Shown here piece after piece: positions 9,315-29,338 of a stretch of DNA of 42,455 nt (position 1 is its first letter; every line of letters begins with the position of its first letter). The notes beneath the pieces are model-generated. The model made no database searches and had not been told where the DNA came from. It saw only the letters and a list, made by a program, of their open reading frames with translations. The stretch comes from Lachnospiraceae bacterium. GTDB lineage: Bacteria > Bacillota > Clostridia > Lachnospirales > Lachnospiraceae. The stretch spans positions 121,496 to 163,950 of the forward strand of contig JAAUZM010000029.1 of NCBI GenBank assembly GCA_014804605.1. The letters are read 5' to 3'. The translations under genes and the position numbers were made by a program.

Positions 9315-10196
9315 ATGACTGAGAAAGAGTTTTCAAGGCTGTCGCGGAAGGAACTGCTTAAGTTGTTGCTTATGCAGGTCCGGGAACAGAACCAACTCGA
9401 AGAGCAAATGGCTGAGATGACTAAGCAGGTTCACGAATGGGAGGAAAGTCGTGGGCGTTTGGAACAAAATTTGGATGCCAAGAATGGGCAGATAGCGGAG
9501 TTAGAAAGGTATCTGGGTGAAAAGGACGATCAGATCAAGGCGTTGAAAGAATGTATATCTGAAAGGGACGATCAGATCAAAAAGCTGGAAGGCTGTATAT
9601 CTGAAAAGGACGACCGAAGTAAGGCATTGGATAACTGCATATCTGAAAAGGATGGCCAGATAGAGGCACTGAAAGGATGTTTGGTTGAAAAGGATGACCA
9701 GATCGAGGAATTGGCAGTATGTATTAGTGAAAAAGATAGGCAAATCGAGAAACTGGAAGAGTATTTGCTCAAGAAAGATGAGCAGTTTAAGGAATGTAAA
9801 GCGCGCTTGAGTGATAAGGACAACAGGATTCGGGAGTTGGAGGGCACCCTTGAGTACGAGCGTGAACTAAAGAATATTCGGCTTTCAGAGTCCGACGACG
9901 CCATCGCTGAGACGGCATTAAAATTGAATGAAATTTTTGAGGCGGCGCAGAAGACTGCAGATCAATATTTAGAGAATATTGCATTGCTCGCTGGGAAGCA
10001 TGATATTGGGGGTGAAGGCATCCGGAATAAAGCTGCAGTCAAAGAGAAAAGCGAGAGAAAAGAGATTAAAAACGCCGGTTCAGATTTATCCGGCATGATC
10101 CGGAATGAGGGAAAAAAGGGATTTGAAGCCTTGAGGCGTGGAATGTCTGATATAAAGCGTAACGTTGGGAAAGATGTAAGGAAAAAGGAGAGATAA
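9315..10196 (+). CDS. Coiled-coil protein with 14-residue Cys-containing repeats
   Basis: A 293-residue charged protein with no signal peptide or membrane segment, so probably cytoplasmic. The N-terminus carries a short motif (EKEFSRLSRKELLKLLL) that recurs in the paralogue at 30423. Residues about 30-190 are a continuous coiled coil of 14-residue repeats of the type CISEKDDQIEALKG. Cysteines sit exactly 14 residues apart at 80, 94, 108, 122 and 136, in heptad position g. The C-terminal 100 residues are charged and end in a Lys/Arg-rich tail. AGGAG precedes the ATG. It is the first gene of the surface-fibre locus, only 4 bases before a signal peptidase gene. I know of no assigned function; a scaffold or positioning factor for the export machinery is a guess. 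Confidence 0.85.
   Translation: MTEKEFSRLSRKELLKLLLMQVREQNQLEEQMAEMTKQVHEWEESRGRLEQNLDAKNGQIAELERYLGEKDDQIKALKECISERDDQIKKLEGCISEKDDRSKALDNCISEKDGQIEALKGCLVEKDDQIEELAVCISEKDRQIEKLEEYLLKKDEQFKECKARLSDKDNRIRELEGTLEYERELKNIRLSESDDAIAETALKLNEIFEAAQKTADQYLENIALLAGKHDIGGEGIRNKAAVKEKSERKEIKNAGSDLSGMIRNEGKKGFEALRRGMSDIKRNVGKDVRKKER
9483..9840 (+). repeat. In-frame 42-base tandem repeat coding a heptad-doubled coiled coil
   Basis: About eight diverged units of 42 bases. Cys codons start at 9552, 9594, 9636, 9678 and 9720, exactly 42 apart, flanked by Tyr codons at 9510 and 9762 in the same register. Confidence 0.85.
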
Positions 10197-10200
10197 ACGG

Positions 10201-10782
10201 GTGGGTGAGAATGGCAGTAAAGTTCCTACGGTGGAGATGATCGAAGCGGAACTTGAGAAAGAGCAGCATAAGAATAAATATCATAAAGCGTTAAGAAGTA
10301 CGGTGTATGCACTGATTGTTGTGGCGGCGGTAACAGTCATTATCGCGGTTCTGGTATTTCCGGTACTTCAGATTACGGGAACATCCATGACGGATACTCT
10401 GCAGAATGGCGACATCGTAATTGCTTTGAACAGCTCCGACTATAAGCTGGGTGATATAGTAGCGTTTTACTATAATAATAATATTCTGGTGAAAAGAGTT
10501 ATTGCATCCTCCGGCGACTGGGTGGACATAGATATGGACGGAAACGTAACGGTCAACGGAGAAGCAATTGACGAGCCATATATATCCGAGAAGTCGTTGG
10601 GTTATTGCGACATTACACTTCCCTATCAGGTGCCGGACGGACGAAACTTTGTGATGGGGGATCACCGGGAGACATCAATGGATTCCCGCAATTCGGCGAT
10701 AGGCTGCATCAGTGATGATATGGTTGTAGGTAAAATCTTTTTCTGCGTATGGCCTTTTGCGGATCTTGGGGTTGTGAAATGA
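10201..10782 (+). CDS. lepB: Signal peptidase I (Ser-Lys type)
   Basis: A 193-residue membrane peptidase that removes signal peptides from exported proteins. It has a cytoplasmic N-terminus, one membrane helix (about 33-56) and an extracellular catalytic domain. The nucleophile is S62 in GTSMTDTL and the general base is K98 in ILVKRVIA. The conserved C-terminal box reads NFVMGDHRETSMDSR. The start is GTG at 10201, with AGGAG 10 bases upstream and only 4 bases after the previous stop. Its position directly before the giant LPETG protein suggests a dedicated pilus peptidase, as in other Gram-positive pilus islands. Confidence 0.93.
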   Translation: MGENGSKVPTVEMIEAELEKEQHKNKYHKALRSTVYALIVVAAVTVIIAVLVFPVLQITGTSMTDTLQNGDIVIALNSSDYKLGDIVAFYYNNNILVKRVIASSGDWVDIDMDGNVTVNGEAIDEPYISEKSLGYCDITLPYQVPDGRNFVMGDHRETSMDSRNSAIGCISDDMVVGKIFFCVWPFADLGVVK

Positions 10783-10833
10783 TTCGGTGTGAATAGCAGT
10801 AAACAGATATATATATGAAAGGGAGACGGCAAT

Positions 10834-13800
10834 ATGAAAAATACAATTTTCGTTCAGGCTGCAAATTTTTTACATGAACGGCGCGATAACAGACGATGGC
10901 GGGCAGTTGTAATCTGTCTGGCTATTGTGGTTGTATGTGCAACTGCCTTAGGTCTGTCAAAGAGAGGGCAGGCTTTAACACGCGGGGAAGATGTTCTGAA
11001 CTGCCGGTTTATTGTACATGAACACGGCGAGAGCTGCTATGATGAAAATGAGAATCTCATATGTACCATGGCGGATTATGTGTTCCATGAACATGATGAA
11101 TCCTGCTATGATGCGGATGGGGAATTGATATGCCGTCTGCCGGAAATAAAAGAGCATGTACATACGGACGACTGCTTCACATCTGAGGATCTTCTGATAT
11201 GTGGAAAAGAAGAAAATGCGGGGGCAGAAGAATCGACGGAAAACATGGAGAATCCGCTTGCTGACGATATCAGTGTTGAGGACATTGAGACCGCAGACGC
11301 TGTTGCATATGCGGACGAAGACATTGCTGTATATGATGACACTGCATCAGGAGGAGGGGAACTGATTTGCGGATATGCAGAACACACTCATGATGGGAGC
11401 TGCTATGAAACTGTAGTGTTATCTTCCGGTCAGGATGAAGTGAGAGAAACATTTATTTGCACGCAGACAGAACACACTCATGATGACTCCTGTCTGGACG
11501 AGGAGGGAAACTTGGTATGCGCACAGGAAGAACATGCCCATGGTTCTGACTGTTATGAATATGAAACGATACCCGGCGAAGATGAAGTGAGTGAGATTCT
11601 GATTTGCGGGCAGGAAGAGCATATCCATGGTGATGAATGCTATAGCGCCGGGACAGCCACTGATACGACAGACCCGGGTTCAATAGATACAGCAGAACCG
11701 GATACGGCAGAGCCGGGTGTAGCAGAACCGGATTCGACGGAGAATACGGAAGGTGTCCATGTACATACGGAGGCCTGCTACAAGACGGTTCGGAAACTGA
11801 TCTGCGGCGAGAAAGCGGCACATATCCATGATGATAGCTGCTATGATAACAATGGCATTGCGGTTTGCGGTGCACCTTATGTAGAATCGGTAGAGACACA
11901 TGTCCACGACAAAGAGTGCTTCAAATCCGGTGATGCAGATGATATGGAATATAGTAAGTCTTATAGCAATGATGATATTGTAGTGACTGCGGCCTATAAG
12001 AAATCGGCCAATATTCCTGTAGAAGCGAAAATGGATGTGGAGCAGATTATAATAGAAGAAAACGATCTGGAAGAATATAAACAGCGTCTGGAAACTGTGT
12101 TAGAGCAAGACGAGATGCCGGCGATGCTATTAAGTCTCCGGTTCAGCACGGATGACGAACTGTTTATACCTGAAGATACCATAAGCCTCACGGTAGAGTT
12201 CTTAAAAGACAATATTTATGCCGAAGGGGATATGGCTAAGGTAGCAAGCATTACAGAGAATAGCGCTGAGGCAATTATCAGTGCGAATATAGACGATACA
12301 CATTCTGTAACTTTTGATGTGGATGAACTTACAGATCTTGCGTTTATCGCATATGAGGAGAAGGAAGCCCGCACTCTGACTTATGAGGGAGCGGATTATA
12401 TCGTGACGGTCGCTCTCGGCGAGGAGACGTTGGTTCCGGAAGATGCTGAACTGGTAGTAGAACAGATCACAGAAGAAAACGATCCGGAAGCTTACGAAGC
12501 ATGTTATGGCAGACTGGAAGAAGCAGAAGGCATGTTAGACGAGAATGAAATGCCGGCGCTGCTGCTTGATATGGGAATATATGCAGAGGGTAATGAGATT
12601 GTACCGGATGAGACAATGGATGTTACGGTACAGTTCTTGAACCGCGAGATTTATTTCGAAGGGGATGCCGTCAAAGCGGCACACCTCACGGCGGATGGTA
12701 TTGAACTGCTTGCAGCTTCCGCTATAGATGAAGAGGTTTCCACAACATTTACGGTGGATGCACTTGCAGAATTTGCATTTATTACAGATGGTGATATCCG
12801 CACACTGACAGCGGAAGGCGAAGACTTCATCGTGGCTGTAAGGTTTGGTCCGTCTGCAAAGATTCCGGAAGATGCACAGCTTGTCGCAAAGCGTATTACC
12901 GAAGAAAATGATCCGGAGCAGTTCACGACAAGAGAGGATCAGCTTCAGGATGAGATCGAAGATGAAATCATTGCTTTAGGCGCACTGTTTGATATTAGCT
13001 TCTACGATGCGGAGGGTATGGAAATTGAACCACAGGATGTCGTGGATGTTAAGATTCAGTTGCTTGACAAAAAAGACGTTGAGGAAGCTGACTCTGTTAG
13101 GGTCGCCCACTTCGTAGAAGATGAAGAGACTGCGGAAGAGAGTATAGAGATTATTAAAGATGCGGATGTTAGCAAGGATGGGGACGGCAGTCTGTCTACA
13201 ACCTTCCAGACGGAGAGCTTCTCACTGTATGCAATTACGGTTAATTCAGACGTAATAAATCAGTCTACGCTTAGAAAAGCTATAAAACTGGCTCAGCAAG
13301 GAGATTCGGGCTTAGTTAGATTGATGAATGATATTGTCTTTACTAAAACGGCAGATGAGGGTGACGCGGATGGAGCCATGTCAATAGATGCGGGTAAAAG
13401 TGTTACTCTCGACCTTAATGGATACACAATTACAGTAGACCCGTCAAATGGTGGCAGCGTTACCTTATTTAACATTAGGGGCAGTTTAAATATAAAGGAT
13501 TCTTCATCTGGCAAGGAAGTAACAGAGAAGCTGATTGGAGTGTCCAGTAAAGACATGGATAATACTTCGAGGCTTGATTATGATGATGCGAATAATCACC
13601 TGAATTTCATGACTTGTTATATTACCAAATCAGATGTGATAGATCCGTCAACCGGAGCAACAAGAGAAGATGTGTATGAATATACAGTATCCGGACACGG
13701 AGCAATTGTAGGATCTAAGCAAAATGAAAGTCCGTTGCTCTGGGTGACAGGGCAGGGAACATTGGATATTGATGATGGTGTGATTGTTGGCGGAAACGGG

Positions 13801-16503
13801 AAACGAGCAGTGGAGATATCAGGTAGCGGTAATACAGCAGTTGCAGATTTACGAGATTGTTATCTGGTTAATAACATTATTACTAATATTAAGGACGTGG
13901 GTGGCGGAGCAGTTTACTGTGGAAACGGTGGCACGATCAACGTTCATGATAAGGCGGTCATTTCAGGTAATATGGGTTGGCAAGGGGGAGCAATTTACGT
14001 CGGTGCTTCTACGATTAATATGTATGGCGGATATATTACCAATAACGAAACGGCCTTTGGAGCAAATAAAAAAGAAGGAGAGCAAGCTAACTATGGCGGC
14101 GGCGGCGGTATACTTCTTCGCAATGCAAGTATTCACATGGAGGGAGGTTTTGTTACCGGAAATAGAGTTTATACCGGTGGTGGCGGTATTTCAATTGAAG
14201 GAGATACTGCCAGAGAGCGTCAAATTGTAGGAGGCTTTATTTCGTCAAATTACTGTCTCGGGTCCCGTGGCGACGGCGCCGGTATAGCGCTTTATGATAA
14301 ATCTAGCATTGAGATTAATGCGGAAGAGGGTAAGAAGGTATACATTACCAATAATGAGGTGTTTGCAGATGGTGACTGGGGCGGCGCCGGAATGTTCGTT
14401 GGTGAAAATTCAACAGCAAACTTGTACGATACCTTGATTACAAATAATTTGGCGGAAGGATTCGGGGGAGGTTTGTCGGGCTGTTCTACCGGACGTATTA
14501 TTAATAGAGGCGAACTGGATGGAGCAGCGATTTTTGATAATACAGCATTGGGTTCGAAGAAGAGTGGTTACTCCTCCTCTAAGAAGGAGGATAAAACATA
14601 TACCGAGAATAATCCGGCATTCTGGGAATTTGATTCGGATGGCAGATACTACTTTCAGGACTGTTTTACAGCTTTATACACGGAACTGGATAACACGATG
14701 CTGGGCAATGGTTCTGAGAACTGGGATGGCAGTATAGATGGAGAAAGAATTGATACGACTGCAAATTACTGGAGTTCTTCCTATATTGCCGGATTAACGG
14801 CTTATCCTACCGATGAGGGTAAGAATAACGCAATGAATGCTGCGAATGTTTATATCAACGGAAATCATTCGGTTGTTCATGGCGGCGGCATTATGTGTAA
14901 TGGAATTATGGTAATTGGTGAACATCCGCATGAAATAGAGATTACTTCGGCTATGAAGTTAAAAGCCAAAAAGAAGTTGGTGAACGCAAACGACGCAAGC
15001 GGAAAGCCTTTAGAAATGGATGAGGGACAGTTCTCATTTACCATATATTCCGATGAGGAATGTACGAAGCTCATAACAACGGGAACAAACGATGAGAACG
15101 GCAACATCTCATTTGTTGACTTTCTGAAGTTTGACCTGAAGAATGACTTTCCAGAGGAAACAGAAGGAACATACATATACTACATTAAAGAAGATGATGC
15201 AGCGCAAAATCCTCTCAACATTGAGATCATATCGGATGATACATTATATCGTATGACAGTTACGGTAACAAAATCAGATCATGGTAAGGTTGCCGGCAGT
15301 AATATTGATAAATATATTGATGATATTACACACGTTCTGCTGGAGAAAAAGGATGGAAGTAACTGGGTAACAGTCTATGAAAATACGAATCGGCTTACTA
15401 ACGAAAAGCATCCAGTTGAACTTAATTTAAGTTCCAGCAATGGAGAGGCTCTTTTTACCAACACAAAATCGGGTGTACTCGAAATCGAAGTTGAGAAAAG
15501 ATGGAACTATAAAGAGGGTTATGAGCCCGGCGGGGAATCTGGTACAAACGACATAGTGTGGGTTTCGGTAGGGTTGTTTAATGGTGGTAGAGAGTTAGAA
15601 GGAATTGATCCTAATTACAAGCGATTAGTATTGAATGCTGAAAATGGCTGGAAAGGCAGCTGGAAAAATCTTTCGCTTGAGGGGAGCCCAGAGGACTACA
15701 TTGTAATGGAAGTGGAAGTAGGACACGCGGATGGTAGGGTAGAGCCGGCTGATTGGCTGTTTGCACCGACATTTGAATATAGTAATGAGAAGGATGGTGT
15801 TGGTAAAGTCACGATCACAAATACTCCTAAAACTAACGGACTTGAGTTTGTCAAAAAGGGCTATGACGGTAAGTTTGTTTATGGGGCTAAGTTCGAGATT
15901 TACATGATGGATAAAGACGATAATGAGCCGGATATAAATAAGAAATACAGTAATCCAAACGTGCTTTGGTTTTCCCATGTTTCGGATGGCTATGAACGTA
16001 TTGATTATGATGATATTACAGATGTAAATTCGGCGCGTACAACAACTACACTTAGTACGAATGTTGAGGGTAAACTTAGGATTGCTAATCTTTGGTGGGG
16101 GTCGTTCCTTATCAGGGAGGTTAAGGCACCTGTCGGATACAAACCGGTACATGATCATATTGTTGATTATTCAGGTGGAACTGCCACACAAAAAATGTTG
16201 TGTGTACTGCCAAATGGTGAAATCAAACAAAATGGCGTAGATGGTTATATGTGTTCTGTCTTTGAAAAGATACCGGCATCAGAATTGGTCAATACCCCGG
16301 AGGATAGAGGCAGTGATTACTTCGACTACGTGAGCGATGTCCTTATATGGAAAATGATCGATCCGGAGGATCAATATGAATTGCCGGAGACAGGTGGAAA
16401 AGGAACCATTTATATTAGTATTTTGGGAGGCCTATCGTTCTTTGGTATCGCAGCCTTAATGTATATGACATTTCGGCGTAGAAGGAATGGATTAAGAAGA
16501 TGA
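10834..16503 (+). CDS. Giant LPETG surface protein with His/Cys repeats, beta-helix and Cna/SpaA-like domains
   Basis: A 1889-residue cell-wall or pilus-tip adhesin candidate. It has an N-terminal basic stretch and hydrophobic signal segment (about 22-46). Ten HxHx3C repeats (62-362) with associated LIC motifs come next, then three related modules of about 140 residues (about 379-805). A Gly/Asn-rich right-handed beta-helix region follows (about 815-1370, rungs such as GGAVYCGNGGTINVHDKA). Cna-B/SpaA-type domains fill about 1370-1840. The end has the sorting motif LPETG (1850-1854), a hydrophobic helix and an RRRRNGLRR tail. The LPETG motif makes it a substrate for a sortase, probably the class C enzyme at 18133. 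Its size and the beta-helix suggest binding of glycans or host surfaces. AGGGAG precedes the ATG. Confidence 0.92.
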   Translation: MKNTIFVQAANFLHERRDNRRWRAVVICLAIVVVCATALGLSKRGQALTRGEDVLNCRFIVHEHGESCYDENENLICTMADYVFHEHDESCYDADGELICRLPEIKEHVHTDDCFTSEDLLICGKEENAGAEESTENMENPLADDISVEDIETADAVAYADEDIAVYDDTASGGGELICGYAEHTHDGSCYETVVLSSGQDEVRETFICTQTEHTHDDSCLDEEGNLVCAQEEHAHGSDCYEYETIPGEDEVSEILICGQEEHIHGDECYSAGTATDTTDPGSIDTAEPDTAEPGVAEPDSTENTEGVHVHTEACYKTVRKLICGEKAAHIHDDSCYDNNGIAVCGAPYVESVETHVHDKECFKSGDADDMEYSKSYSNDDIVVTAAYKKSANIPVEAKMDVEQIIIEENDLEEYKQRLETVLEQDEMPAMLLSLRFSTDDELFIPEDTISLTVEFLKDNIYAEGDMAKVASITENSAEAIISANIDDTHSVTFDVDELTDLAFIAYEEKEARTLTYEGADYIVTVALGEETLVPEDAELVVEQITEENDPEAYEACYGRLEEAEGMLDENEMPALLLDMGIYAEGNEIVPDETMDVTVQFLNREIYFEGDAVKAAHLTADGIELLAASAIDEEVSTTFTVDALAEFAFITDGDIRTLTAEGEDFIVAVRFGPSAKIPEDAQLVAKRITEENDPEQFTTREDQLQDEIEDEIIALGALFDISFYDAEGMEIEPQDVVDVKIQLLDKKDVEEADSVRVAHFVEDEETAEESIEIIKDADVSKDGDGSLSTTFQTESFSLYAITVNSDVINQSTLRKAIKLAQQGDSGLVRLMNDIVFTKTADEGDADGAMSIDAGKSVTLDLNGYTITVDPSNGGSVTLFNIRGSLNIKDSSSGKEVTEKLIGVSSKDMDNTSRLDYDDANNHLNFMTCYITKSDVIDPSTGATREDVYEYTVSGHGAIVGSKQNESPLLWVTGQGTLDIDDGVIVGGNGKRAVEISGSGNTAVADLRDCYLVNNIITNIKDVGGGAVYCGNGGTINVHDKAVISGNMGWQGGAIYVGASTINMYGGYITNNETAFGANKKEGEQANYGGGGGILLRNASIHMEGGFVTGNRVYTGGGGISIEGDTARERQIVGGFISSNYCLGSRGDGAGIALYDKSSIEINAEEGKKVYITNNEVFADGDWGGAGMFVGENSTANLYDTLITNNLAEGFGGGLSGCSTGRIINRGELDGAAIFDNTALGSKKSGYSSSKKEDKTYTENNPAFWEFDSDGRYYFQDCFTALYTELDNTMLGNGSENWDGSIDGERIDTTANYWSSSYIAGLTAYPTDEGKNNAMNAANVYINGNHSVVHGGGIMCNGIMVIGEHPHEIEITSAMKLKAKKKLVNANDASGKPLEMDEGQFSFTIYSDEECTKLITTGTNDENGNISFVDFLKFDLKNDFPEETEGTYIYYIKEDDAAQNPLNIEIISDDTLYRMTVTVTKSDHGKVAGSNIDKYIDDITHVLLEKKDGSNWVTVYENTNRLTNEKHPVELNLSSSNGEALFTNTKSGVLEIEVEKRWNYKEGYEPGGESGTNDIVWVSVGLFNGGRELEGIDPNYKRLVLNAENGWKGSWKNLSLEGSPEDYIVMEVEVGHADGRVEPADWLFAPTFEYSNEKDGVGKVTITNTPKTNGLEFVKKGYDGKFVYGAKFEIYMMDKDDNEPDINKKYSNPNVLWFSHVSDGYERIDYDDITDVNSARTTTTLSTNVEGKLRIANLWWGSFLIREVKAPVGYKPVHDHIVDYSGGTATQKMLCVLPNGEIKQNGVDGYMCSVFEKIPASELVNTPEDRGSDYFDYVSDVLIWKMIDPEDQYELPETGGKGTIYISILGGLSFFGIAALMYMTFRRRRNGLRR
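11017..11919 (+). repeat. Ten HxHx3C repeats in the giant surface protein
   Basis: HxH pairs lie at residues 62, 85, 108, 184, 214, 234, 263, 309, 330 and 356. Each is followed three residues later by Cys (usually CY), and many by a second Cys in L-I-C about 10-20 residues on. Two His and two Cys per unit could bind a metal ion, or the Cys could pair as disulfides. Confidence 0.9.
11970..13250 (+). repeat. Three tandem modules of about 140 residues
   Basis: Each module starts with an IVTV-like strand and carries VPEDAELV and ITEENDPE-like motifs. Each ends with a Thr-Phe-rich strand such as TTFTVDALAEFAFIT. Starts are near 11970, 12390 and 12822, giving periods of about 420 and 432 bases. 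Confidence 0.8.
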
Positions 16504-20095: not shown

Positions 20096-20109
20096 GGGGG
20101 ATGATGGAT

Positions 20110-20604
20110 ATGAAAAAAAGAAATATCTTTAAGAATATCTTCCTCGTATCCTTTGCGGCTGTATTGATTCTGACTGCAGGCATAGGAAAGGCGAGTGCAT
20201 ACTTTACCACTTACGCGCGGGCCGCGGGCGGTTATCGTATCAGCATAGACTATGATACGGAGATTGAGGAGAAATTCTCTGACTGGAAGAAGAGAGTTGT
20301 CATTAAGAATAAAGACGGTTCCCAACCGGTATATGTCCGTGCGAGAGCATTCTGCGGAGAAGAGTACAGCCTGACTTATTCAGGTGATAAGTGGACTCTT
20401 GGGAAAGATGGCTACTGGTATTATAATGACATTCTATACGGCGGAAGCCAGACGGCTGAATTGGTGGTTAAGATTGACAAGATTCCTGAAGGTGTTGAGG
20501 AAGCGGAATTAAATGTAGTGGTTATATATGAGTATACACCTGTCAAGTATAATCAGGACGGAAAGCCTTATGCTGACTGGTCGGAAAGGGGGAAAATTGA
20601 ATGA
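20110..20604 (+). CDS. SipW-dependent secreted protein (TasA/CalY-like signal region)
   Basis: A 164-residue protein with a hydrophobic N-terminus ending GKASAYFTTYARAAGGYRI. This resembles SipW-processed TasA/camelysin-type proteins, where the Ala-Tyr-Phe stretch follows the cleavage site. The mature part is a compact beta domain with VKIDKIPEGVEEAELNVVV. The start at 20110 is preferred over ATGs at 20101 and 20104 because the GGGGG ribosome binding site ends directly at 20100. The stop overlaps the next start (ATGA). A SipW peptidase is encoded 2.5 kb downstream. TasA relatives form biofilm fibres; this one is shorter than TasA and its polymerisation is not established. Confidence 0.82.
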   Translation: MKKRNIFKNIFLVSFAAVLILTAGIGKASAYFTTYARAAGGYRISIDYDTEIEEKFSDWKKRVVIKNKDGSQPVYVRARAFCGEEYSLTYSGDKWTLGKDGYWYYNDILYGGSQTAELVVKIDKIPEGVEEAELNVVVIYEYTPVKYNQDGKPYADWSERGKIE

Positions 20605-21325: not shown

Positions 21326-22150
21326 ATGAAAAATAGATTGATTAGTTTGTGCCTTATTCTCCTGCTTATAGGCGGTATATCCTTTCCTGTTCATGCGGAG
21401 ACCTATCAGGGCAGTTCCGGATGGCGTGTGGCGTTTACTAATGGTAAGAGGCTGGAAAGTAATTTTAAGACCGCAGATCTGGATGAGGCGGTCAGCGGTC
21501 TGCAGCCGGGCGATAATATTATCTTTACCCTGCAACTGCAGAATGATTACAGTGAGTCCACTGACTGGTGGATGACCAATGAGGTTCTGCATTCTTTGGA
21601 GGATACCAGTGCTAACAGCAACACTCATGGCGGCGCGTATACATACGTCTTAACTTACACGGATAAGGCGGGCGAGGCGGTCACTCTGTTCAGCAGTGAA
21701 TCGGTCGGCGGCGATATCATAAGCGGCGCCGGAGAGGGACTGCACGAGGCAACGGATGCGATGGAGGATTATTTCTATCTGGATACTCTCTCCACCGGGC
21801 AGAGGGGTACCGTCACACTGGAGATTGCTCTGGACGGCGAGACACAGGGAAACGACTATCAGGATACGCTGGCGGATCTGCAGATGAATTTTGCAGTGGA
21901 GATAAACTCCAGCGGAAATCGGGTCAGAAGGCTGCGAGAGATGAGTTCGGACTTCTCCTTAAGAAAACTTATAAACGGAGAATATGATTTTGGCTCATCT
22001 ATTATTGCTTTATCTAACATTGTAAAGACGGGTGATGTAGCACACCTGATGTTGTATGTGATTTTGATGGCTGTCAGCGGAATCGGAATCCTGCTTCTGG
22101 CCATATACAGTATGAAGCAGAAAAGAAAAGAAGAAAAGGAGGCGGAGTAG
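21326..22150 (+). CDS. Surface protein with noncanonical VKTGD sorting-like signal
   Basis: A 274-residue protein with a signal peptide (about 1-24, ending PVHAE), a beta-rich extracellular domain (about 25-210) and a C-terminal IVKTGD (232-237). A hydrophobic helix (about 240-262) and a KQKRKEEKE tail follow. This order mimics a cell-wall sorting signal, with IVKTG in place of LPxTG. AGGAGGG precedes the ATG. A class B sortase is encoded 1.5 kb downstream and could use such a motif; alternatively the protein simply stays in the membrane. The extracellular domain is not recognised beyond similarity in layout to TasA-locus anchors. Confidence 0.8.
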   Translation: MKNRLISLCLILLLIGGISFPVHAETYQGSSGWRVAFTNGKRLESNFKTADLDEAVSGLQPGDNIIFTLQLQNDYSESTDWWMTNEVLHSLEDTSANSNTHGGAYTYVLTYTDKAGEAVTLFSSESVGGDIISGAGEGLHEATDAMEDYFYLDTLSTGQRGTVTLEIALDGETQGNDYQDTLADLQMNFAVEINSSGNRVRRLREMSSDFSLRKLINGEYDFGSSIIALSNIVKTGDVAHLMLYVILMAVSGIGILLLAIYSMKQKRKEEKEAE

Positions 22151-22151
22151 T

Positions 22152-23126
22152 ATGGGAAAGATGAGAAAAAGATTTGGCGTACTGCTTATTGCCGCTTTGA
22201 TTTTTATTTGTTTTCCGGCTGTTCCCGCAAGGGCTGCATCTGGAGGCTACACTTATACGATCCGCTTATATTCCGGTCAGCAGGGGACATTTGCTAACGG
22301 GCAGAGAGTGCTCACTTACGAGGGGCTTTCTTATGGATCGACCGTGACATTTAATCCAAACGACGGTAATGTGGTCTTAAATGACGGCAGTAAATATTAT
22401 ATCAAAGGGATACGTGAGAGTGGAAGAGACAACAATACGGTAAGTTCTCCTTCGTTTACGGTGGTGGGAGACAGGGACTATGTGGTGGCATACGGTTTGC
22501 GCGGCAACATGGTGGCGTATACAGTCAATTATGTGGATATAAGCGGAAGTGCGCTGGCGCCCAGTGAGACTTATTACGGCAACGTGGGAGATAAACCGGT
22601 CGTTGCTTTCCTGTATATTGACGGGTATCAGCCTCTGGCGTATAATCTGACGAAGACACTTGTAGAGAACGAGGCGGAGAATGAATTTACGTTTGTCTAC
22701 GAACTGCTTACAGGGGCGCAGCCCAACACGACAGTGACAAGACAGATAGGGTCTGAAACCGGAAGAACAATGGTGGAAGTGATAGAGGGATCTTCAGACC
22801 GCAGGACAGGTTCAGATCAGCTATACGATTTTCAAAATGCGGACGGCGATTTGAATGGAATGTCTCTGTCGGAACCGCAGGATATGATAGATCTGGATAA
22901 TCCGGATGATATGGATATGGACGGTATCTTTCTGGAGGATCCTGCAGTGCCTTTGGCGGATATGAAATTTAAGCTCGGACCTATTGAAGTAGACGCGAGA
23001 ACGTTGCTTATTTTGTGCGTGATCATAATAGCCGCAGCAGTGATAGCGGCAGCGAGCTACTGGTTCTGGAAACCTTACAGGAAGAAGGATAAGAATGAAG
23101 AAGAAGATGCTGCCCAGCCTGTGTAA
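22152..23126 (+). CDS. Membrane-anchored surface protein with MucBP-like domain
   Basis: A 324-residue protein with a signal peptide (about 1-29, ending VPARAAS), an N-terminal beta-grasp-like region (about 30-120) and a MucBP-like domain (about 122-185, YTVNYVDISG to ENEFTFVYEL). An acidic linker with DLDNPDDMDMDGI precedes a membrane helix (about 283-305) and a charged cytoplasmic tail KKDKNEEEDAAQ. No sorting motif is seen. The start overlaps the previous stop (TAGTATG) and has AAGGAGG upstream; its own 3' end overlaps the SipW gene by 32 bases. MucBP domains occur in adhesins, so a role in adhesion or in holding the fibre base is plausible. Confidence 0.82.
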   Translation: MGKMRKRFGVLLIAALIFICFPAVPARAASGGYTYTIRLYSGQQGTFANGQRVLTYEGLSYGSTVTFNPNDGNVVLNDGSKYYIKGIRESGRDNNTVSSPSFTVVGDRDYVVAYGLRGNMVAYTVNYVDISGSALAPSETYYGNVGDKPVVAFLYIDGYQPLAYNLTKTLVENEAENEFTFVYELLTGAQPNTTVTRQIGSETGRTMVEVIEGSSDRRTGSDQLYDFQNADGDLNGMSLSEPQDMIDLDNPDDMDMDGIFLEDPAVPLADMKFKLGPIEVDARTLLILCVIIIAAAVIAAASYWFWKPYRKKDKNEEEDAAQPV

Positions 23127-23583
23127 TCTGTTGGGAACCCTGATACTGCTTTTGGTCATTGTTTCCTGTCTGCCGTTGACTGTGCCGCGCCTGTCAGGGT
23201 ATGAAATTTATGAAATAGTCAGCGGCAGTATGGAGCCGGAGATTCCCGTGGGGAGCGTTATCTATGTAAAAAATGTGCAGCCTGAGGATATTGAGGAAGA
23301 AGACGTGATTGCTTTTTGGAGCGGCTCCACTGTCATCGCCCACCGGGTGAGGCAGAATAAAGTGGTGGAGGGAGAGTTCGTTACGAAAGGAGATGCCAAT
23401 GCCGCCGAGGACTTGAGGGCAGTTTCTTATTCTGAATTGATCGGCAGGGTAGTTTACCACTTTCCGGTGGCGGGACACCTGATGGCGTTGTATACTAGTA
23501 ATGTTGGTAAGATTTATGTGATTCTTTTTGCAGCGTGTGGTGTTATGCTGAATATGCTGGCGGGATGTCTGCGTGACCGATGA
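23095..23583 (+). CDS. sipW: SipW-type signal peptidase (Ser-His type)
   Basis: A 162-residue signal peptidase of the archaeal/ER type that processes TasA-like proteins. It has an N-terminal membrane helix (about 9-28), nucleophile S45 in SGSMEPEIP and H83 in VIAHRV in place of the Lys of ordinary bacterial enzymes. KGDANAAED supplies the conserved Asp region, and a C-terminal hydrophobic helix spans about 140-157. The start lies inside the previous gene with AAGGA upstream, indicating coupling. Its likely clients are the proteins at 20110 and 20601. It is distinct from the Ser-Lys peptidase at 10201, so the locus carries two signal peptidases with different chemistry. Confidence 0.93.
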   Translation: MKKKMLPSLCNLLGTLILLLVIVSCLPLTVPRLSGYEIYEIVSGSMEPEIPVGSVIYVKNVQPEDIEEEDVIAFWSGSTVIAHRVRQNKVVEGEFVTKGDANAAEDLRAVSYSELIGRVVYHFPVAGHLMALYTSNVGKIYVILFAACGVMLNMLAGCLRDR

Positions 23584-23623: not shown

Positions 23624-24421
23624 ATGGGAAAAAGGATAAGGTGGATTATGATAATATTGCTTATAGCAATATTTTTGTTTTGTGCCGGATCTCTTGTAGG
23701 TGTCCTGAATCAGTATAAGACTGTTGAGCAGGTTTACATCGATTCGGCAAAGCAGTACACGATTGCAGAAGATAACGGAAGCGATGAGACAAATACGGAA
23801 ACTGAAGAGGAAGCCGAGACGGAAACCGTGACGGAGTACGCTCCGATCAGTGTTGATTTTGAGTCTCTGCAGGAAGTGAACAGTGATGTGGTCGGCTGGA
23901 TTTACTGTGCGGATACGGTGATTAATTATCCGATACTCGAGGGGGAGGATAACGATTTCTATCTTCATCATACCTATGAAGGGGAATACAGTTCGGCGGG
24001 ATCTATTTTTATAGAGGCCGCTAATCGACCGGGGTTTGTGGATTCCAACACGGTGATTTACGGTCATCACATGAAAGACGGATCTATGTTTGCTTCTTTG
24101 GACAATTGGGCGGATCAGGAGTATTATGAGGAACATCCCGTTATGTGGCTGCTGACGCCTGAACAGGATTACAAGGTCGTTTTGTTTAGCGGCTATACGA
24201 CATCTGCATATTCGGATACTTACTTGATTTTCACCGGACCATGTGATGAGTTTGACGAGTATCTGGCGGACTGTGTAGAGAAGTCGGATTTCCGGACTGA
24301 TGTGGAACTGGATCTGGACGGATATTATGTATTGCTTTCAACCTGCGCATATTCGTTTGAGGATGCCAGATATGTCCTGCATGGGATGCTGATTCCGGTG
24401 GACAGGCAGCAGGTTGGTTAG
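23624..24421 (+). CDS. srtB: Class B sortase
   Basis: A 265-residue sortase with an N-terminal membrane helix (about 6-25), an acidic Glu/Thr-rich linker (about 48-72) and a class B catalytic domain (about 75-262). Residues expected in the active site are H148 in IYGHHMKDG, C241 in LLSTCAYSF and R249 in EDARYVLHG. Class B enzymes usually attach proteins to the cell wall, often with motifs that deviate from LPxTG. In Clostridia they may anchor pili or single proteins. The VKTGD protein at 21326 is the nearest candidate client. GGAGGG precedes the ATG. Confidence 0.93.
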   Translation: MGKRIRWIMIILLIAIFLFCAGSLVGVLNQYKTVEQVYIDSAKQYTIAEDNGSDETNTETEEEAETETVTEYAPISVDFESLQEVNSDVVGWIYCADTVINYPILEGEDNDFYLHHTYEGEYSSAGSIFIEAANRPGFVDSNTVIYGHHMKDGSMFASLDNWADQEYYEEHPVMWLLTPEQDYKVVLFSGYTTSAYSDTYLIFTGPCDEFDEYLADCVEKSDFRTDVELDLDGYYVLLSTCAYSFEDARYVLHGMLIPVDRQQVG

Positions 24422-24436
24422 GCAGGAGGGATATAC

Positions 24437-25468
24437 ATGAAGAAATTGAATAAGGCAGTCTTTATTTTGCTGGCGGTTTCTTTGGTTGCTGTATTGTTGG
24501 CGGCGTGTGGTATGGAAGCTCCTGCCGCGTCGGACCGTGAAGCAGGGGGCGCTTCTTCCGATACAGATAGTGGGGCTGGTCGTGATTCCGTCGATACGGA
24601 CCGTGAATCAGACGATACTTCCTCTGATGTAAGCCGTGAATCAGCACATTCTTCCGCACCCTTTACACCGGCCGGTATTCCGGAGGCGTCAGGCACTGTA
24701 GTAGAAGAAAATGATTCTGCCGTGATTGATTATTCCAATACGATGGACGGATATGTGATGGTGGATTTCTCCAAGGACACGGGGAATCCTTTGAAGGTGC
24801 AGGTGACAGGTCCTACTACAACTTATACTTACAATTTGGACGCGGGTGAATGGACTGCATTTCCCCTGTCGGACGGTGATGGGAACTATAAGGTGACAGT
24901 GTATGAGAGCATGGGCAATGAAAAGTACAGTACAGTATTGGCAGCTTCTTTTCAAGTGACCTTGGATAGTGAGTTTGCTCCTTTTCTTCATGCCAATCAG
25001 TATGTTGATTACTGCAATGCGACAGATACGATGGCAAAAACGGCGGAGCTGACGGGCGGGACGACGGATACGTTGGAAAAAGTCGGAAGAATATATGATT
25101 ATGTGATAAAGAATGTGACCTATGACACGCAGAAGGCTGCCAGCGTAGAGAGCGGATATCTTCCAGTGTTGGATGATGTGCTCGCTTCCAAAAAAGGGAT
25201 ATGTTTTGACTATGCCGCCCTGATGGCGGGTATGCTGCGGAGTTGTGAGATTCCCTGCAAGCTGGTGGTGGGATACTCCGGAAATGCTTATCACGCATGG
25301 ATCAGTGTGTGGACCGATGAGTCCGGATGGCTGGACGATGTCATCTATTTTGACGGTCAATCATGGCAACGTATGGATCCTACTTTTGCCTCAGCAAACC
25401 AAGGAAGTGCTGCCGTCATGGAATACATCGGTGACGGGAACAATTATATGGCGCAGTATCAATATTGA
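24437..25468 (+). CDS. Lipoprotein with transglutaminase-like domain
   Basis: A 343-residue exported lipoprotein. The lipobox is LLAAC, followed by a low-complexity Ser/Asp/Arg/Glu linker (about 28-75). A beta domain (about 90-180) precedes the transglutaminase-like (papain-fold) domain (about 195-330). The catalytic triad is visible as C256 in KGICFDYA, H286 in AYHAWI and D314 in RMDPTF. Such domains can cross-link, hydrolyse or bind peptides. In a fibre locus it might form or edit side-chain bonds at the cell surface; that is inference. GGAGGG precedes the ATG, 15 bases after the sortase stop. It is the last gene of the sortase/SipW half of the locus. Confidence 0.88.
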   Translation: MKKLNKAVFILLAVSLVAVLLAACGMEAPAASDREAGGASSDTDSGAGRDSVDTDRESDDTSSDVSRESAHSSAPFTPAGIPEASGTVVEENDSAVIDYSNTMDGYVMVDFSKDTGNPLKVQVTGPTTTYTYNLDAGEWTAFPLSDGDGNYKVTVYESMGNEKYSTVLAASFQVTLDSEFAPFLHANQYVDYCNATDTMAKTAELTGGTTDTLEKVGRIYDYVIKNVTYDTQKAASVESGYLPVLDDVLASKKGICFDYAALMAGMLRSCEIPCKLVVGYSGNAYHAWISVWTDESGWLDDVIYFDGQSWQRMDPTFASANQGSAAVMEYIGDGNNYMAQYQY

Positions 25469-25504: not shown

Positions 25505-26548
25505 ATGATGAAGAAGACGATCACACATGAAGCGATATCTTCCCTGTGTCTGGAACTGTCCCTGCTTCTCAACGCAGGCGTAGGATCGGGGGATGCGTTA
25601 GCGCTGATTTCGGAAGAGAGCGATTCGGGATATAAGGAACTGTTGGCGGAGATGGCACATAACGTAGATGAGGGGATGTCTCTTTCGGCAGCCTTTAAAG
25701 ACACCGGGAGGTTTCCATCCTATGTCTGCGGTCTGGTGGAGGTAGGAGAGCAGGCGGGACATAGTGTTGAAGCGCTCGCGGCACTCGCCCGATACTATGA
25801 ATACAGAGTCAGGCTGGAGCGGAAAATCAGAAGTTCGCTGCTGTATCCGACGGTGATGCTTTTTTTAATGCTGATAGTTATCGGCGTGCTGTTGGTGAAA
25901 GTTCTTCCCATATTTGATGATGTCTATAAGTCCATGGGAAGTCGGCTTACCGGCGTGGCGGGCGGATTGCTGAATCTGGGGCAGTGGCTCGATGGAATTA
26001 TGCCCATTTTGTGGGCGGTTCTTATCGTTTTGGCATTATTTGTGCTGGCTTTTACTGCAGTTGAGCCTTTTCGTGCGCTGTTGGTATCTCGATGGAGGCG
26101 CAGACGTGGGGATAAGGGACTGTCGCGGCAGATGAATACTGCCCGTATCGCGCAGGCGCTTTCAATGGGAATGTCCAGCGGTCTGTCGTTGGATGAGTCC
26201 GTTTCTCTGGCTGCCGGAATGATGGAGGATGTGGCAGGCGCCGTGAAGAGATGTGAAGCTTGCCGGGAGAAGCTGGAGCAGGGACAACCGCAGGGAAGCG
26301 CCCTTAGAGAGAGCGGTCTGCTGCCCGCTTATTTCTGCCGACTGCTGGAGCTGGGAATGAGGAGCGGAGCAGGGGATGCGGCCATGGAGAAGATTGCCAA
26401 TGACATATCGGAGGAAAGCGATGCGGCGTTGGAAGCAATGGTGAACCGTGTGGAGCCGGCGCTTGTGTTGGTATGTTCTGTGCTGGTGGGATTAATCCTG
26501 CTGTCCGTGATGCTGCCGCTTATGCGGATCACGACGATGATAGGATAG
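25505..26548 (+). CDS. PilC/GspF-type inner-membrane platform protein
   Basis: A 347-residue protein with two T2SSF domains (about 10-130 and 205-335) and membrane segments near 110-135, 170-190 and 320-345. Conserved features are the GLVEVGEQAGHSVEALAALARYYEYR line in the first half and the matching LLELGMRSGAGDAAMEKIAND in the second. Family members form the membrane platform on which a pilus or pseudopilus assembles and which the cytoplasmic ATPase drives. GGAG lies upstream, and the gene begins 36 bases after the transglutaminase gene. It opens the type IV-pilus-like half of the locus. Confidence 0.92.
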   Translation: MMKKTITHEAISSLCLELSLLLNAGVGSGDALALISEESDSGYKELLAEMAHNVDEGMSLSAAFKDTGRFPSYVCGLVEVGEQAGHSVEALAALARYYEYRVRLERKIRSSLLYPTVMLFLMLIVIGVLLVKVLPIFDDVYKSMGSRLTGVAGGLLNLGQWLDGIMPILWAVLIVLALFVLAFTAVEPFRALLVSRWRRRRGDKGLSRQMNTARIAQALSMGMSSGLSLDESVSLAAGMMEDVAGAVKRCEACREKLEQGQPQGSALRESGLLPAYFCRLLELGMRSGAGDAAMEKIANDISEESDAALEAMVNRVEPALVLVCSVLVGLILLSVMLPLMRITTMIG

Positions 26549-26573
26549 TAAAGCAAAGGAACATGGTATCGGG

Positions 26574-26894
26574 ATGAGAAGAAAGAAGAATGGTTTAAAT
26601 GTAATCCGGGGAGTGTTATTGCCCTGCGTCATTGCCGCGGTGCTTATATGCTTCATTTCCGCGCTGGATAGTCTTGACAGTGGTATGAATGAGGAGAATC
26701 TGCGACAGATGGAGGAAGCTCTGCGCAAGGGGTGTGCGACATGTTATGCTGTGGAGGGCGCTTATCCCCCGGATCTGGAATATTTGAAGGAGCATTACGG
26801 TATTCGGGTGGATGAGACGAAATATACGGTTTTTTACAATTCGTTCGCTCAGAACCTGATGCCTGATATTACGGTGTTGGAGAATATGCCATGA
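26574..26894 (+). CDS. Small pseudopilin-like membrane protein
   Basis: A 106-residue protein with a basic start (MRRKKN), one membrane helix (about 12-32) and a short extracellular domain containing CATCYAVEGAYPPDLEYLKEHYG. This Cys-rich helix followed by YPPDLEYL resembles the first strand region of pseudopilins. No classic G/F-x-x-x-E prepilin cleavage site is present. The ribosome binding site is weak (GGG near the ATG), and the stop overlaps the next start (ATGA). It is read as a minor subunit by context. Confidence 0.75.
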   Translation: MRRKKNGLNVIRGVLLPCVIAAVLICFISALDSLDSGMNEENLRQMEEALRKGCATCYAVEGAYPPDLEYLKEHYGIRVDETKYTVFYNSFAQNLMPDITVLENMP

Positions 26895-27373
26895 AGAAAA
26901 GAGTGACGGAGTATCATTTTGCAAGTCTGGCTGCTCTGTTATTGTTCGGTGTGTTTGCAGTTTGTGTGGCTATGGTGCTGTTGATCGGTGTAGATGCCTA
27001 CAGACGGCTGGTTACACGGGATGAGACAGTCCATGACCGTAGCATTAGTATGCAGTATGTAGCCATGAGAGTGCGGCAGGCGGAAGGACCGGACTGTATC
27101 AGAACGGAAGAGTTTGGCGGCGTGAATGCGTTGGCGCTCACTGACAGCGCGGGCTGCATTACCCGGGTGTATTACTATGACGGTCATATTATGGAATTGT
27201 ATACGGATGCCGATAATGTTCTGTCTCCGGCAGCGGGAGAGCAGGTCATGGAGGCTGGGGGATTGGATTTTTCTCTGAATGACGGGTTGTTGACGGTAAC
27301 TGCCATAGACCCGGAAGGGGAGCAGAGTATTCTGAGGCTGTTCATACATAGCAGAGGGGAGGCTGGAACATGA
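26891..27373 (+). CDS. DUF4860-like pseudopilin-type protein
   Basis: A 160-residue protein with one N-terminal membrane helix (about 12-37) and a small beta domain. Strands such as LALTDSAGCITRVYYYDGHIMELY and LLTVTAIDPEGEQSILRLFIHSRGE match what I recall of DUF4860 proteins next to PilC and PilT genes in Lachnospiraceae. It overlaps both neighbours by 4 bases (ATGA), so the whole set is probably translated as a coupled group. Function is unproven; a pseudopilin-type subunit is the likely role. Confidence 0.78.
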   Translation: MKKRVTEYHFASLAALLLFGVFAVCVAMVLLIGVDAYRRLVTRDETVHDRSISMQYVAMRVRQAEGPDCIRTEEFGGVNALALTDSAGCITRVYYYDGHIMELYTDADNVLSPAAGEQVMEAGGLDFSLNDGLLTVTAIDPEGEQSILRLFIHSRGEAGT

Positions 27374-27813
27374 AGAGTAAAGCGCCTCTGGCATTGATAG
27401 AGCAGATCGTGATGGTGTTGGTGTTTGCTCTGGCAGCCGCCCTGTGTATTCAGGCTTTTGTGAAGGCCGATCACATATCCCTGCGAAGTGAGGAGACGAG
27501 CTGCGCAGCACTTGCTGCTCAGGATGCTGCTGAACTGATTAAGTACAGCGGCGGAGATATGGAGCATGCCCTGTCACAGGCAGGAGAATTGCTGGGCGGT
27601 ACTTATGCTCAGGGCATGCTATATATTGACTATGATGAGGATTGGAATCTGACGGAGCAAGACGGCGTCTACCGTCTGACAGCTCAGGGAGTGCCCGTGG
27701 AAGAGCCGGGGCTGCAAAAGGCGCTGGTGCAGGTTGTCACAGGTGCCCCGGAGGATTGTGAACTTTTGTTTGCGCTTGAGGCGGCATGGCTGGAGGTGAG
27801 TCCCGATGAATGA
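27370..27813 (+). CDS. Type IV pilin-like protein with LIE motif
   Basis: A 147-residue protein with a short basic leader (MKSKAP) and LALIEQIVMVLVFALAAAL. The Glu in LIE corresponds to Glu5 of type IV prepilins, but the usual Gly before the cleavage point is replaced (Ala-Pro). The body contains AALAAQDAAELIKYSGGD and ends ALEAAWLEVSPDE. Start and stop overlap the neighbours. If processed at all, it would need a peptidase with relaxed specificity; no prepilin peptidase gene is seen in this window. Confidence 0.78.
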   Translation: MKSKAPLALIEQIVMVLVFALAAALCIQAFVKADHISLRSEETSCAALAAQDAAELIKYSGGDMEHALSQAGELLGGTYAQGMLYIDYDEDWNLTEQDGVYRLTAQGVPVEEPGLQKALVQVVTGAPEDCELLFALEAAWLEVSPDE

Positions 27814-28213
27814 AAAAGAACGCTTTTCAATGCCCACAACGGGCGGGATCTCTCTGCTGGTGGCATTTGCGGTGCTGTGTCTGACGGTTTTCGCGCTGAT
27901 GAGTCTGTCCAAAGTTCAGGCGGACAAGCGAATGGCGGACGCGTCCCTGCAGGCAGTGACGGATTATTACGCAGCGGATTGTGAAGCATGGAGGATTCTG
28001 GCACTTTTGCTGGAGGGAGAGGTTCCGGAGTGTGTCACGCAGGAGGACGGTGTTTACGCTTATAGCTGTCCCATTTCGGAGACGCAGAACCTTAAGGTGG
28101 AAGTGCTCCTAGAAGGGAAGCATTATACGATCCTGCGCTGGCAGGCAGTTTCTGAACGCGAAGAAAGCGGAGGGGAGAGCATGGGTCTGTGGGATGGGAC
28201 TTTACCGTTTTGA
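27806..28213 (+). CDS. Small membrane protein of the pilus-like operon
   Basis: A 135-residue protein with a polar leader MNEKERFSMPTTGG, a membrane helix (about 15-36, ISLLVAFAVLCLTVFALMSL) and an extracellular domain with AADCEAWRILALLLEGEVP and CPISETQNLKVEV. The GG before the helix could be a prepilin-like cleavage point, but the Glu at +5 is missing. GGAGGTGAG precedes the ATG, which overlaps the preceding gene. Role by context is a minor pseudopilin or TadE-like subunit. Confidence 0.75.
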   Translation: MNEKERFSMPTTGGISLLVAFAVLCLTVFALMSLSKVQADKRMADASLQAVTDYYAADCEAWRILALLLEGEVPECVTQEDGVYAYSCPISETQNLKVEVLLEGKHYTILRWQAVSEREESGGESMGLWDGTLPF

Positions 28214-28276
28214 CCGGTTGGATGGTATTCATCATACCGACAGTAAAGTTTATAGCTGAGAAGGAGAGAAATAGAA

Positions 28277-29338
28277 ATGACAGAATTGATAGAATATTTA
28301 CAACGGGCAGTGGTGGATAAGGCGTCCGATTTATTCATTGTAGCCGGAGGAAAAATATCGGAGAAGGTTGAGAAGGTTATGATTCCTATAAGCGAAGAAT
28401 CGGTAACTCCCGCGGAGGCGGAGCGACTGATTACCGAGTTTTATACGCGTGCGAACCGTCCGATGGAAGGATATCTCGAGCGGGGGGATGACGACTTTTC
28501 CCTTTCTATTCCGGGACTTGCCCGTTTTCGTATCAACACCTACCGCCAGAGGGGATCTATGGCTGCGGTTGTGCGTGTGGTAATCTTTGATATTCCGGAT
28601 TGGAGGAGTATCCATATTCCTGATCAGGTTATGGAGCTTTCTTCCGTTACCCATGGTATGGTACTGATGACGGGAACGGCAGGAAGCGGAAAATCTACGA
28701 CTCAGGCATGTATTATTGACCGGATCAACCGGACACGTGGCTGCCATATCATCACCCTTGAGGATCCTATTGAGTATCTTCACAGAGACCAGAAAAGTAT
28801 CATCAGCCAGAGGGAGATTGCCATTGATTCAGAGAACTATCTGACGGCACTGCGCGCTTGCCTGCGGCAGGCGCCTGATGTGATCCTGTTGGGGGAGATG
28901 CGTGATCATGAGACGATCCGGACGGCAATGACGGCGGCGGAAACAGGGCACCTTTTGATTGCTACGCTTCATACGCAGGGTACAGTGAACTCTATCGATA
29001 GGATAATAGATTCTTTTCCCAGCAGCCAGCAGATGCAGATTCGTACACAGTTGAGCATGGTATTGAATACGGTGGTGTCCCAGCAGCTTTTGCCCGGTAT
29101 TAATGGAGAGCTGATACCGGCATACGAGGTCATGCGCATGAACAATGCTATCAGAAGCCTGATCCGTGAGAGCAAGAGCCATCAGATTGACAATGTCATC
29201 GCATCAGGAAGCGGAGAGGGAATGGTCACTATGGATCAGTCTATTCTTAAACTATATCAGGAAAAAAGAATCACAAAGGATACCGCTTTGGAATATGCTG
29301 AACATCCGGAGCAGATGCTCAGACGTATGGGAAATTAG
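28277..29338 (+). CDS. pilT: PilT-type retraction ATPase
   Basis: A 353-residue hexameric secretion/pilus ATPase. The N-terminal domain spans about 1-115 and the RecA-like domain 116-340. Walker A is GTAGSGKST (133-141), the Walker B region is DVILLGEMRD (201-210), and the His box is ATLHTQ (229-234). The C-terminal AIRSLIRESK corresponds to the AIRNLIREGK box that marks PilT rather than PilB. PilT proteins depolymerise type IV pili. No extension ATPase is encoded nearby, so this motor may act alone or with a PilB encoded elsewhere. AAGGAG precedes the ATG. It is the last gene of the 20-kb run and faces a convergent AraC gene. Confidence 0.93.
   Translation: MTELIEYLQRAVVDKASDLFIVAGGKISEKVEKVMIPISEESVTPAEAERLITEFYTRANRPMEGYLERGDDDFSLSIPGLARFRINTYRQRGSMAAVVRVVIFDIPDWRSIHIPDQVMELSSVTHGMVLMTGTAGSGKSTTQACIIDRINRTRGCHIITLEDPIEYLHRDQKSIISQREIAIDSENYLTALRACLRQAPDVILLGEMRDHETIRTAMTAAETGHLLIATLHTQGTVNSIDRIIDSFPSSQQMQIRTQLSMVLNTVVSQQLLPGINGELIPAYEVMRMNNAIRSLIRESKSHQIDNVIASGSGEGMVTMDQSILKLYQEKRITKDTALEYAEHPEQMLRRMGN

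Follow-up and report, generated by a model that had tools for sequence, protein, structure and literature searches.

A run of 19 consecutive genes in the genome of a gut bacterium of the Lachnospiraceae combines two sets of surface functions that, judging from gene content, conserved order, co-occurrence and repeated linkage, are probably functionally coupled. The genes lie on the plus strand at positions 9315-29338 of the window, i.e. the whole stretch of 42,455 nucleotides that was analysed (assembly GCA_014804605.1, contig JAAUZM010000029.1, positions 121,496 to 163,950); the genome itself (G000) measures 4.6 Mb and has a near twin (G160) in the same genus. The first set (9315-24421), here called the SipW cluster, encodes pilins, class C and class B sortases, a SipW-type signal peptidase and secreted proteins, among them one with a C-terminal VKTGD signal (the KTGD protein). 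The second set (24437-29338), the motor module, encodes a transglutaminase-like lipoprotein, a PilC/GspF platform protein, four pilin-like proteins (psA to psD) and a PilT-family ATPase. On balance we favour the view that the apparent operon is a fusion of two cooperating surface systems. If the two sets are indeed coupled, sortase/SipW fibres would be made with the help of a type IV-like motor and of a transglutaminase-like enzyme at the surface, systems that have so far been treated as separate.

Co-occurrence and linkage of the two gene sets

The motor module was located in other genomes by means of psB, which carries the domain DUF4860, and the SipW cluster by means of the KTGD protein. 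The module is present in 52 of the first 150 genomes of the family, in 135 of the full set of 397, which contains that of the window, and in six of the 77 genomes of the genus. KTGD homologues were present in 50 of the 397 genomes at E <= 1e-3 and in 43 at E <= 1e-7, the level at which we call a homologue clear. All 43 genomes with a clear homologue hold the module, where about 15 would be expected from the base rate (Fisher p 4e-23), and the same holds when counting by genus (37/37 vs 118/334, p 2.7e-19). Within the genus, the KTGD protein occurs in three genomes, all of them among the six that have the module (p 2.7e-4).

The association is specific. Among the first 150 genomes, those with a SipW match over the cut-off show a moderate association (module in 26 of 49, p 0.001) and those with a class C sortase show none that is significant (19 of 46, p 0.17). 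Once the KTGD-positive genomes are removed, the fractions become 10/33 and 7/34, respectively, neither of which is above the base of 52/150. The association therefore belongs to the KTGD-type cluster, and both class C sortase and SipW in general were rejected as associated factors. A match to the SipW-type model TIGR02228 exceeds the cut-off in 29 of 57 module genomes. These controls bear on the explanation that only a lifestyle is shared, i.e. that two independent adhesion systems are co-selected in one niche and have become adjacent through joint switching-on. A limitation to the KTGD-type cluster is not what a general surface lifestyle predicts. Nevertheless, most of the fetched loci have no SipW cluster near the module, which often neighbours housekeeping-type genes (20 loci judged by eye), and the divergent arrangements described next could be explained by co-regulation. 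We consider this explanation fairly unlikely.

In 11 of the 43 genomes both markers are found on one contig within 25 kb of each other (rough binomial probability under random placement, 2.5e-9). The arrangement of the window recurs in three of these (G000 itself, G081 and G244), six are divergent (G028, G230, G254, G298, G307 and G428), one is convergent (G278) and in one the cluster lies downstream (G299). G193, from the window's genus, has a divergent arrangement as well, and in G075 a SipW gene adjoins the transglutaminase gene on a different contig from the KTGD matches. In a 71-row tree of PilC, at least two changes are needed to account for the co-directional loci, and the seven divergent loci are scattered, a pattern that fits either repeated gain or gain combined with repeated loss equally well. 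Functional coupling predicts linkage that is varied and recurring, so the observed pattern fits it.

A chance operon fusion in a single lineage, devoid of functional meaning, would agree with the finding that the nearest PilC relatives (L059, L071, L068 and L078) lack a SipW-type protein near the module and a KTGD match genome-wide (the L071 stretch ends 1.4 kb before the transglutaminase gene). It is disfavoured by the counts of co-occurrence and linkage and by the separate linked groups on the PilC tree, and also by L059 and L078 themselves, where a class B sortase match (39% and 21% identity, weak in L078) lies 1.7-2.3 kb before the transglutaminase gene with no SipW cluster in sight. We regard it as very improbable. 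Sortase B may be an older link between the two halves.

Named genomes lend weaker support. Among 79 of their class C sortase loci, 31 have SipW proteins, and eight of the 31 run co-directionally into the module (L134, L140, L141, L142, L144, L154, L170 and L192). The L134 locus is 85-99% identical to the window, sortase B adjoins the transglutaminase gene in L134, L140, L141 and L144, and the near loci include ones titled Acetatifactor sp. A psA homologue is present in 26 of the 31 genomes with a SipW cluster vs 10 of 19 controls (p 0.02), controls that were judged by the sortase locus only and might have a SipW cluster elsewhere. A cultured gut commensal, Agathobacter ruminis JK623, has both SipW-cluster proteins (locus L191) and psA.

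Several points weigh against the coupling of the two halves. The threshold for a clear KTGD homologue follows a gap in the match list and was picked after the matches had been seen; at E <= 1e-3 the count becomes 44/50, the module being present in one of the seven genomes with weaker matches. Relatedness was treated by the genus-level and one within-genus test only, and the p-values are too small because genomes or genera were counted as independent. Furthermore, a search with one KTGD protein gave no clear homologue in 92 of the 135 module genomes, which implies that the module has another or wider job. Finally, psA was unmatched in five of the 31 named genomes with a SipW cluster (L180, L189, L190, L193 and L201). 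In L180, L190 and L193 the place right behind SipW, which the module occupies in L154, is taken by housekeeping-type genes; these metagenome-assembled genomes may be incomplete, and a probable loss of the module in them means that it is not strictly required. A preliminary description of this DNA, which had proposed a composite fibre or coordinated surface programme, thus gains support as to coordination from the co-occurrence and linkage counts. The halves are not an inseparable unit, in view of the module-only genomes, the varied orientation and the SipW-cluster genomes without the module marker. Of the independence of the halves that it had put forward as a refutation, one side was found, in that the module is often alone; the cluster as defined by a clear KTGD protein is not.

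Extent and composition of the motor module

The preliminary description had divided the block into 10201-25468 and 25505-29338, which places the transglutaminase gene with the sortase genes. Comparison of 52 DUF4860 loci from 51 other genomes with the proteins of the window led to a different division. Although several loci end at contig ends, matches were found to psA in 51 loci, to PilC in 50, to the transglutaminase in 45 and to PilT in 42, and in 40 loci the transglutaminase gene directly precedes that of PilC on the same strand. As the transglutaminase gene accompanies that of PilC elsewhere, a boundary at 25470-25504 is rejected and the module starts at 24437. The transglutaminase gene is found beyond PilT in L079, L080, L082 and L084 and is inverted in L053; it was unmatched in seven loci, two of which are cut short (L069 and L088) and five of which are not (L045, L057, L066, L074 and L076).

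Like type IV filament systems, the module has a PilC/GspF platform protein (PF00482) and a motor ATPase of the T2SSE superfamily, with Walker A in 50 and the GExRD box in all of 53 full-length PilT relatives. The ATPase motifs are intact, as is the catalytic triad of the transglutaminase (Cys256, His286 and Asp314, each present in 98% of the 62 sequences aligned). A lipobox-like pattern is present in 36 of 61 transglutaminase relatives, whose start codons are uncertain. The block has no gene for the extension ATPase PilB; the genome of the window does have one on contig 5, within a separate type IV locus (L100) that includes PilB, PilC, PilD and canonical pilins. A T2SSE ATPase of the size of PilT is encoded about 6.5 kb before that PilB gene. 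Of 57 module genomes, 26 have a PilB-like ATPase (T2SSE, E < 1e-110); the other 31, some of which are incomplete, gave no match better than 1e-110, so that in these the module has no other known motor than the PilT-type enzyme. Further T2SSE proteins of about 400 residues, common in module genomes, are probably Tad-type. Prepilin peptidase is encoded outside the block: PF01478 has two matches elsewhere in the window's genome and matches in 149 of 150 family genomes.

The preliminary description recognised four pseudopilin-like proteins, a characterization that is only partly supported by sequence: the second protein belongs to DUF4860 and the third has a glutamate at position +5, and no pilin model is matched by either the first or the fourth. 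The term pilin-like is based on size, a single N-terminal membrane segment, gene context and psC. The prepilin cleavage motif [GAS]x4[DE] before a hydrophobic stretch, as given in PMC3244431, is absent from all four proteins of the window and present in two canonical pilins encoded elsewhere in the genome. Counted over 43 of 49 loci, namely those with exactly four called open reading frames (the other six being excluded), the motif occurs in no psA, psB or psD and in 21 psC proteins (8 with G or A at -1). In psA the residues G62, Y64, P65, Y75, Y88 and P97 are invariant over 28 sequences; no Pfam family matched the protein consistently and sequence searches gave no significant match, nor did a sequence search of the PDB for either psA or SipW-type protein 2.

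The reach of psA extends to genomes titled Coriobacteriaceae, Atopobiaceae, Erysipelotrichaceae, Solobacterium, Faecalibacterium and Oscillospiraceae. In L280 and L282, both of them Coriobacteriaceae loci, the transglutaminase and PilC genes precede psA, and genomes titled Coriobacteriaceae or Atopobiaceae (L148, L150, L153 and L157) combine the SipW cluster with psA, which suggests transfer between phyla. Exceptions to the housekeeping-type surroundings of the module, again judged by eye, are a class C sortase gene beside it in L047 and giant secreted proteins encoded upstream of it in L037 (2881 aa) and L052 (3364 aa). Sigma-factor-like genes, likewise recognised by eye, adjoin the module in L052 and L061. 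The giant proteins and sigma-factor-like genes of L037, L052 and L061 may represent other partners of the module.

The SipW cluster, related systems and a possible mechanism

The SipW cluster is a conserved unit in its own right. In 40 stretches around KTGD homologues, one each from 40 of the 43 genomes, the order runs from LPXTG pilins via class C sortase, the pilin-like protein, SipW-type proteins 1 and 2, the KTGD protein and the MucBP protein to SipW; class C sortase was present in 24 stretches, SipW-type protein 2 in 37, SipW in 31 and sortase B in 9. Around distant KTGD proteins (about 22-33% identical; 13 stretches) class C sortase was found once and two SipW genes five times, and in L237 the KTGD protein stands alone. 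The sorting signal of the KTGD protein scores just below the cut-off of the srtB_target model TIGR03063 (17.1 vs 18.15 bits), and the protein is probably a substrate of sortase B. Two SipW-type secreted proteins had been named in the preliminary description; both do match TIGR04090, albeit below the 60-bit cut-off, so that neither reaches the level set for the BsaA family. In the relatives of the first that were inspected an AYFT-type stretch follows the hydrophobic segment, and 21 of 30 sequences aligned to the second match TIGR04090 at E <= 0.01. The SipW-type signal peptidase likewise falls under the cut-off of the Bacillus SipW model NF046067 (73.7 vs 190 bits). By inference only, the MucBP domain suggests adhesion to mucus.

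With sortase-dependent pili of the SpaH/RrgB type the window shares a class C sortase (NF033745), an isopeptide-containing LPXTG backbone pilin (TIGR04226, LPRTG) and a large LPETG protein. Relatives of the backbone pilin in the PDB include a FimA-like pilin (9uvm, E 5.9e-35), although it scores below the SpaH/EbpB major-pilin model NF033902 (61.5 vs 95 bits). Unlike in those pili, SipW, SipW-type proteins, the KTGD protein and sometimes sortase B are linked in a conserved order. Bacillus cereus TasA/CalY filaments are described as sortase-independent in the available text of PMC13082335. Monoderm type IVa pili, in the parts available of PMC6916266 and PMC3244431, likewise use a PilC platform and a PilT ATPase, whereas PilB, PilD, PilM, PilN, PilO and a canonical major pilin are unmatched among the 19 genes of the window. 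For archaeal type IV pili, a surface transglutaminase-family protein of unknown role is genetically tied to the pili according to the available portion of PMC4858521, as in the window, where it is a bacterial transglutaminase-like lipoprotein whose gene adjoins that of PilC. The available main text of PMC3244431, PMC6916266 and PMC6668835 nowhere uses the word transglutaminase, and DUF4860 is absent from the open-licence PMC papers searched, among which no title or abstract start describes a linkage between sortase/SipW genes and a type IV module. SipW and class C sortase come up together in one of these papers, the review PMC5817068.

A further parallel is the sipW-bsaABCRSD operon of Clostridium perfringens, which, as far as the available text of PMC7395162 goes, comprises SipW and secreted matrix proteins with sortase srtB nearby (not needed for BsaA polymers) and is influenced by a type IV pilin. 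In that description the operon lacks class C sortase pili and type IV genes and includes a two-component system, which is absent from the block; the SipW-type proteins of the window furthermore stay below the BsaA-family cut-off. In the same source, PilA2-dependent inhibition of bsaA expression proceeds through the sensor kinase BsaS. Since a type IV pilin thus affects sipW-bsaA expression, a regulatory link is a live rival: the type IV-like module would act as a sensor at the cell surface and regulate the fibre operon, much as PilA2 represses sipW-bsaA, and divergent arrangements would suit mutual regulation. However, no sensor kinase was matched among the 19 genes, the nearest regulators found, of the AraC type (5420-6298 and 29388-30128), both lie on the opposite strand to the block, and the transglutaminase is left unexplained. 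We therefore deem a sensor role decidedly unlikely.

Of the two cooperating systems that we favour, the first would make sortase-C pili and SipW-processed secreted proteins, sortase B probably anchoring the KTGD protein. The second would be a minimal type IV filament-like machine, consisting of PilC, one PilT-type ATPase, the four pilin-like proteins and the transglutaminase-like lipoprotein. For the way in which they cooperate the following mechanism is put forward tentatively, as less than an even proposition. The machine would form at most a short, envelope-spanning pseudopilus, which could push, position or pull what the SipW cluster produces across the thick wall, with possible cross-linking or trimming by the transglutaminase-like enzyme. 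A stronger version, unlikely in our estimation, is that the module represents a type IV filament machine of a class not yet described, which works with a PilT-type ATPase alone, is largely independent of prepilin cleavage, and builds or cross-links SipW-sortase fibres in gut Bacillota and Coriobacteria, three fibre chemistries thus sharing one assembly line. The module is common in the family and holds an unnamed marker protein (psA) alongside DUF4860, and it offers a testable setting for the question how SipW-type proteins cross and attach to the thick Gram-positive wall in gut commensals.

The gene block and its surroundings

The genes of the block are separated by gaps of 1-63 bases or overlap by 4-32 bases (Table 1). 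The single block of 18 genes in the preliminary description thus stands as regards strand and close spacing, and the number of genes is 19. Domain calls on the window proteins with Pfam and NCBIfam models, scored against model cut-offs, agree with the identities given there for signal peptidase I, the isopeptide-domain backbone pilin, class C sortase, SipW, sortase B, the transglutaminase core, the T2SSF/PilC protein and the PilT family. Motifs that can be read in the sequence are LPETG, LPRTG, those of Ser-Lys and Ser-His peptidases and, in the transglutaminase, the lipobox LAAC. The pilin-like protein with DUF5979 has no sorting signal that could be seen in its sequence. In G193 a coiled-coil match also stands beside signal peptidase, a weak match of a kind that coiled coils give easily.

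Table 1. Features of the gene block, with positions in the window
Feature	Position	Strand	Evidence or remark
Strong terminator-like stem-loop closing the upstream glycoside hydrolase unit	9120..9156	+	16-pair stem, then CTTTTTTATA
Coiled-coil protein	9315..10196	+	first gene of block
Signal peptidase I (Ser-Lys type)	10201..10782	+	TIGR02227 119.1 bits (cut-off 47)
LPETG-anchored surface protein, 1889 residues, SpaA domain	10834..16503	+	SpaA 26.6 bits (cut-off 23.1); TIGR01167 20.8 (15.9)
LPRTG-anchored backbone pilin, isopeptide domain	16551..18104	+	TIGR04226 65.7 bits (cut-off 30)
Class C sortase (pilin polymerase)	18133..19014	+	NF033745 272.9 bits (cut-off 160)
Secreted pilin-like protein, DUF5979	19028..20095	+	domain match; position conserved in relatives
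SipW-type secreted protein 1	20101..20604	+	TIGR04090 31.3 bits (below cut-off 60)
SipW-type secreted protein 2	20601..21314	+	TIGR04090 22.0 bits (below cut-off 60)
KTGD protein, secreted	21326..22150	+	C-terminal VKTGD, membrane segment, positive tail; marker of SipW cluster
MucBP-domain membrane-anchored surface protein	22152..23126	+	PF06458 24.2 bits (cut-off 23)
SipW-type signal peptidase	23095..23583	+	TIGR02228 84.7 bits (cut-off 51.85)
Class B sortase	23624..24421	+	TIGR03064 193.7 bits (cut-off 153.75)
Transglutaminase-like lipoprotein	24437..25468	+	PF01841 84.4 bits; first gene of motor module
PilC/GspF platform protein	25505..26548	+	PF00482 144.2 bits (cut-off 25.2)
Pilin-like protein A (psA)	26574..26894	+	CYAxEGxYP motif behind membrane segment; no Pfam match
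Pilin-like protein B (psB), DUF4860	26891..27373	+	PF16152 58.5 bits (cut-off 25)
Pilin-like protein C (psC)	27370..27813	+	Glu+5 kept (PLALIEQ), -1 without G/A/S
Pilin-like protein D (psD)	27806..28213	+
PilT-family ATPase	28277..29338	+	TIGR01420 388.5 bits (cut-off 319.1)

Terminators and promoters were scanned for in 8500-28400 and in 29000-31000. In the first of these stretches the number of promoter-like sites, 32, is about what chance would give (35.2 expected), and that of terminator-like stems on both strands is somewhat higher than expected (17 vs 12.3 +/- 3.1); the nine plus-strand stems after 9156 are all short (5-7 pairs). The preliminary description had seen no terminator within the block and had pointed to 25470-25504 as the place where a terminator or strong promoter might split it; no terminator-like stem lies there, and nothing singles this gap out.

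About 4 kb upstream of the block, 2452-5376 encodes a protein with solute-binding, GGDEF and EAL domains, possibly a cyclic-di-GMP input to the surface genes. The glycoside hydrolase family 3 gene at 6511-8916 has a permuted order, its C-terminal and Fn3-like domains preceding the N-terminal catalytic domain. Downstream, the AraC-type regulator gene at 29388-30128 is convergent with pilT and is kept beside the module in G160, and 30851-35730 encodes, in this order, a family 16 hydrolase that carries carbohydrate-binding domains and a family 94 glycoside hydrolase.

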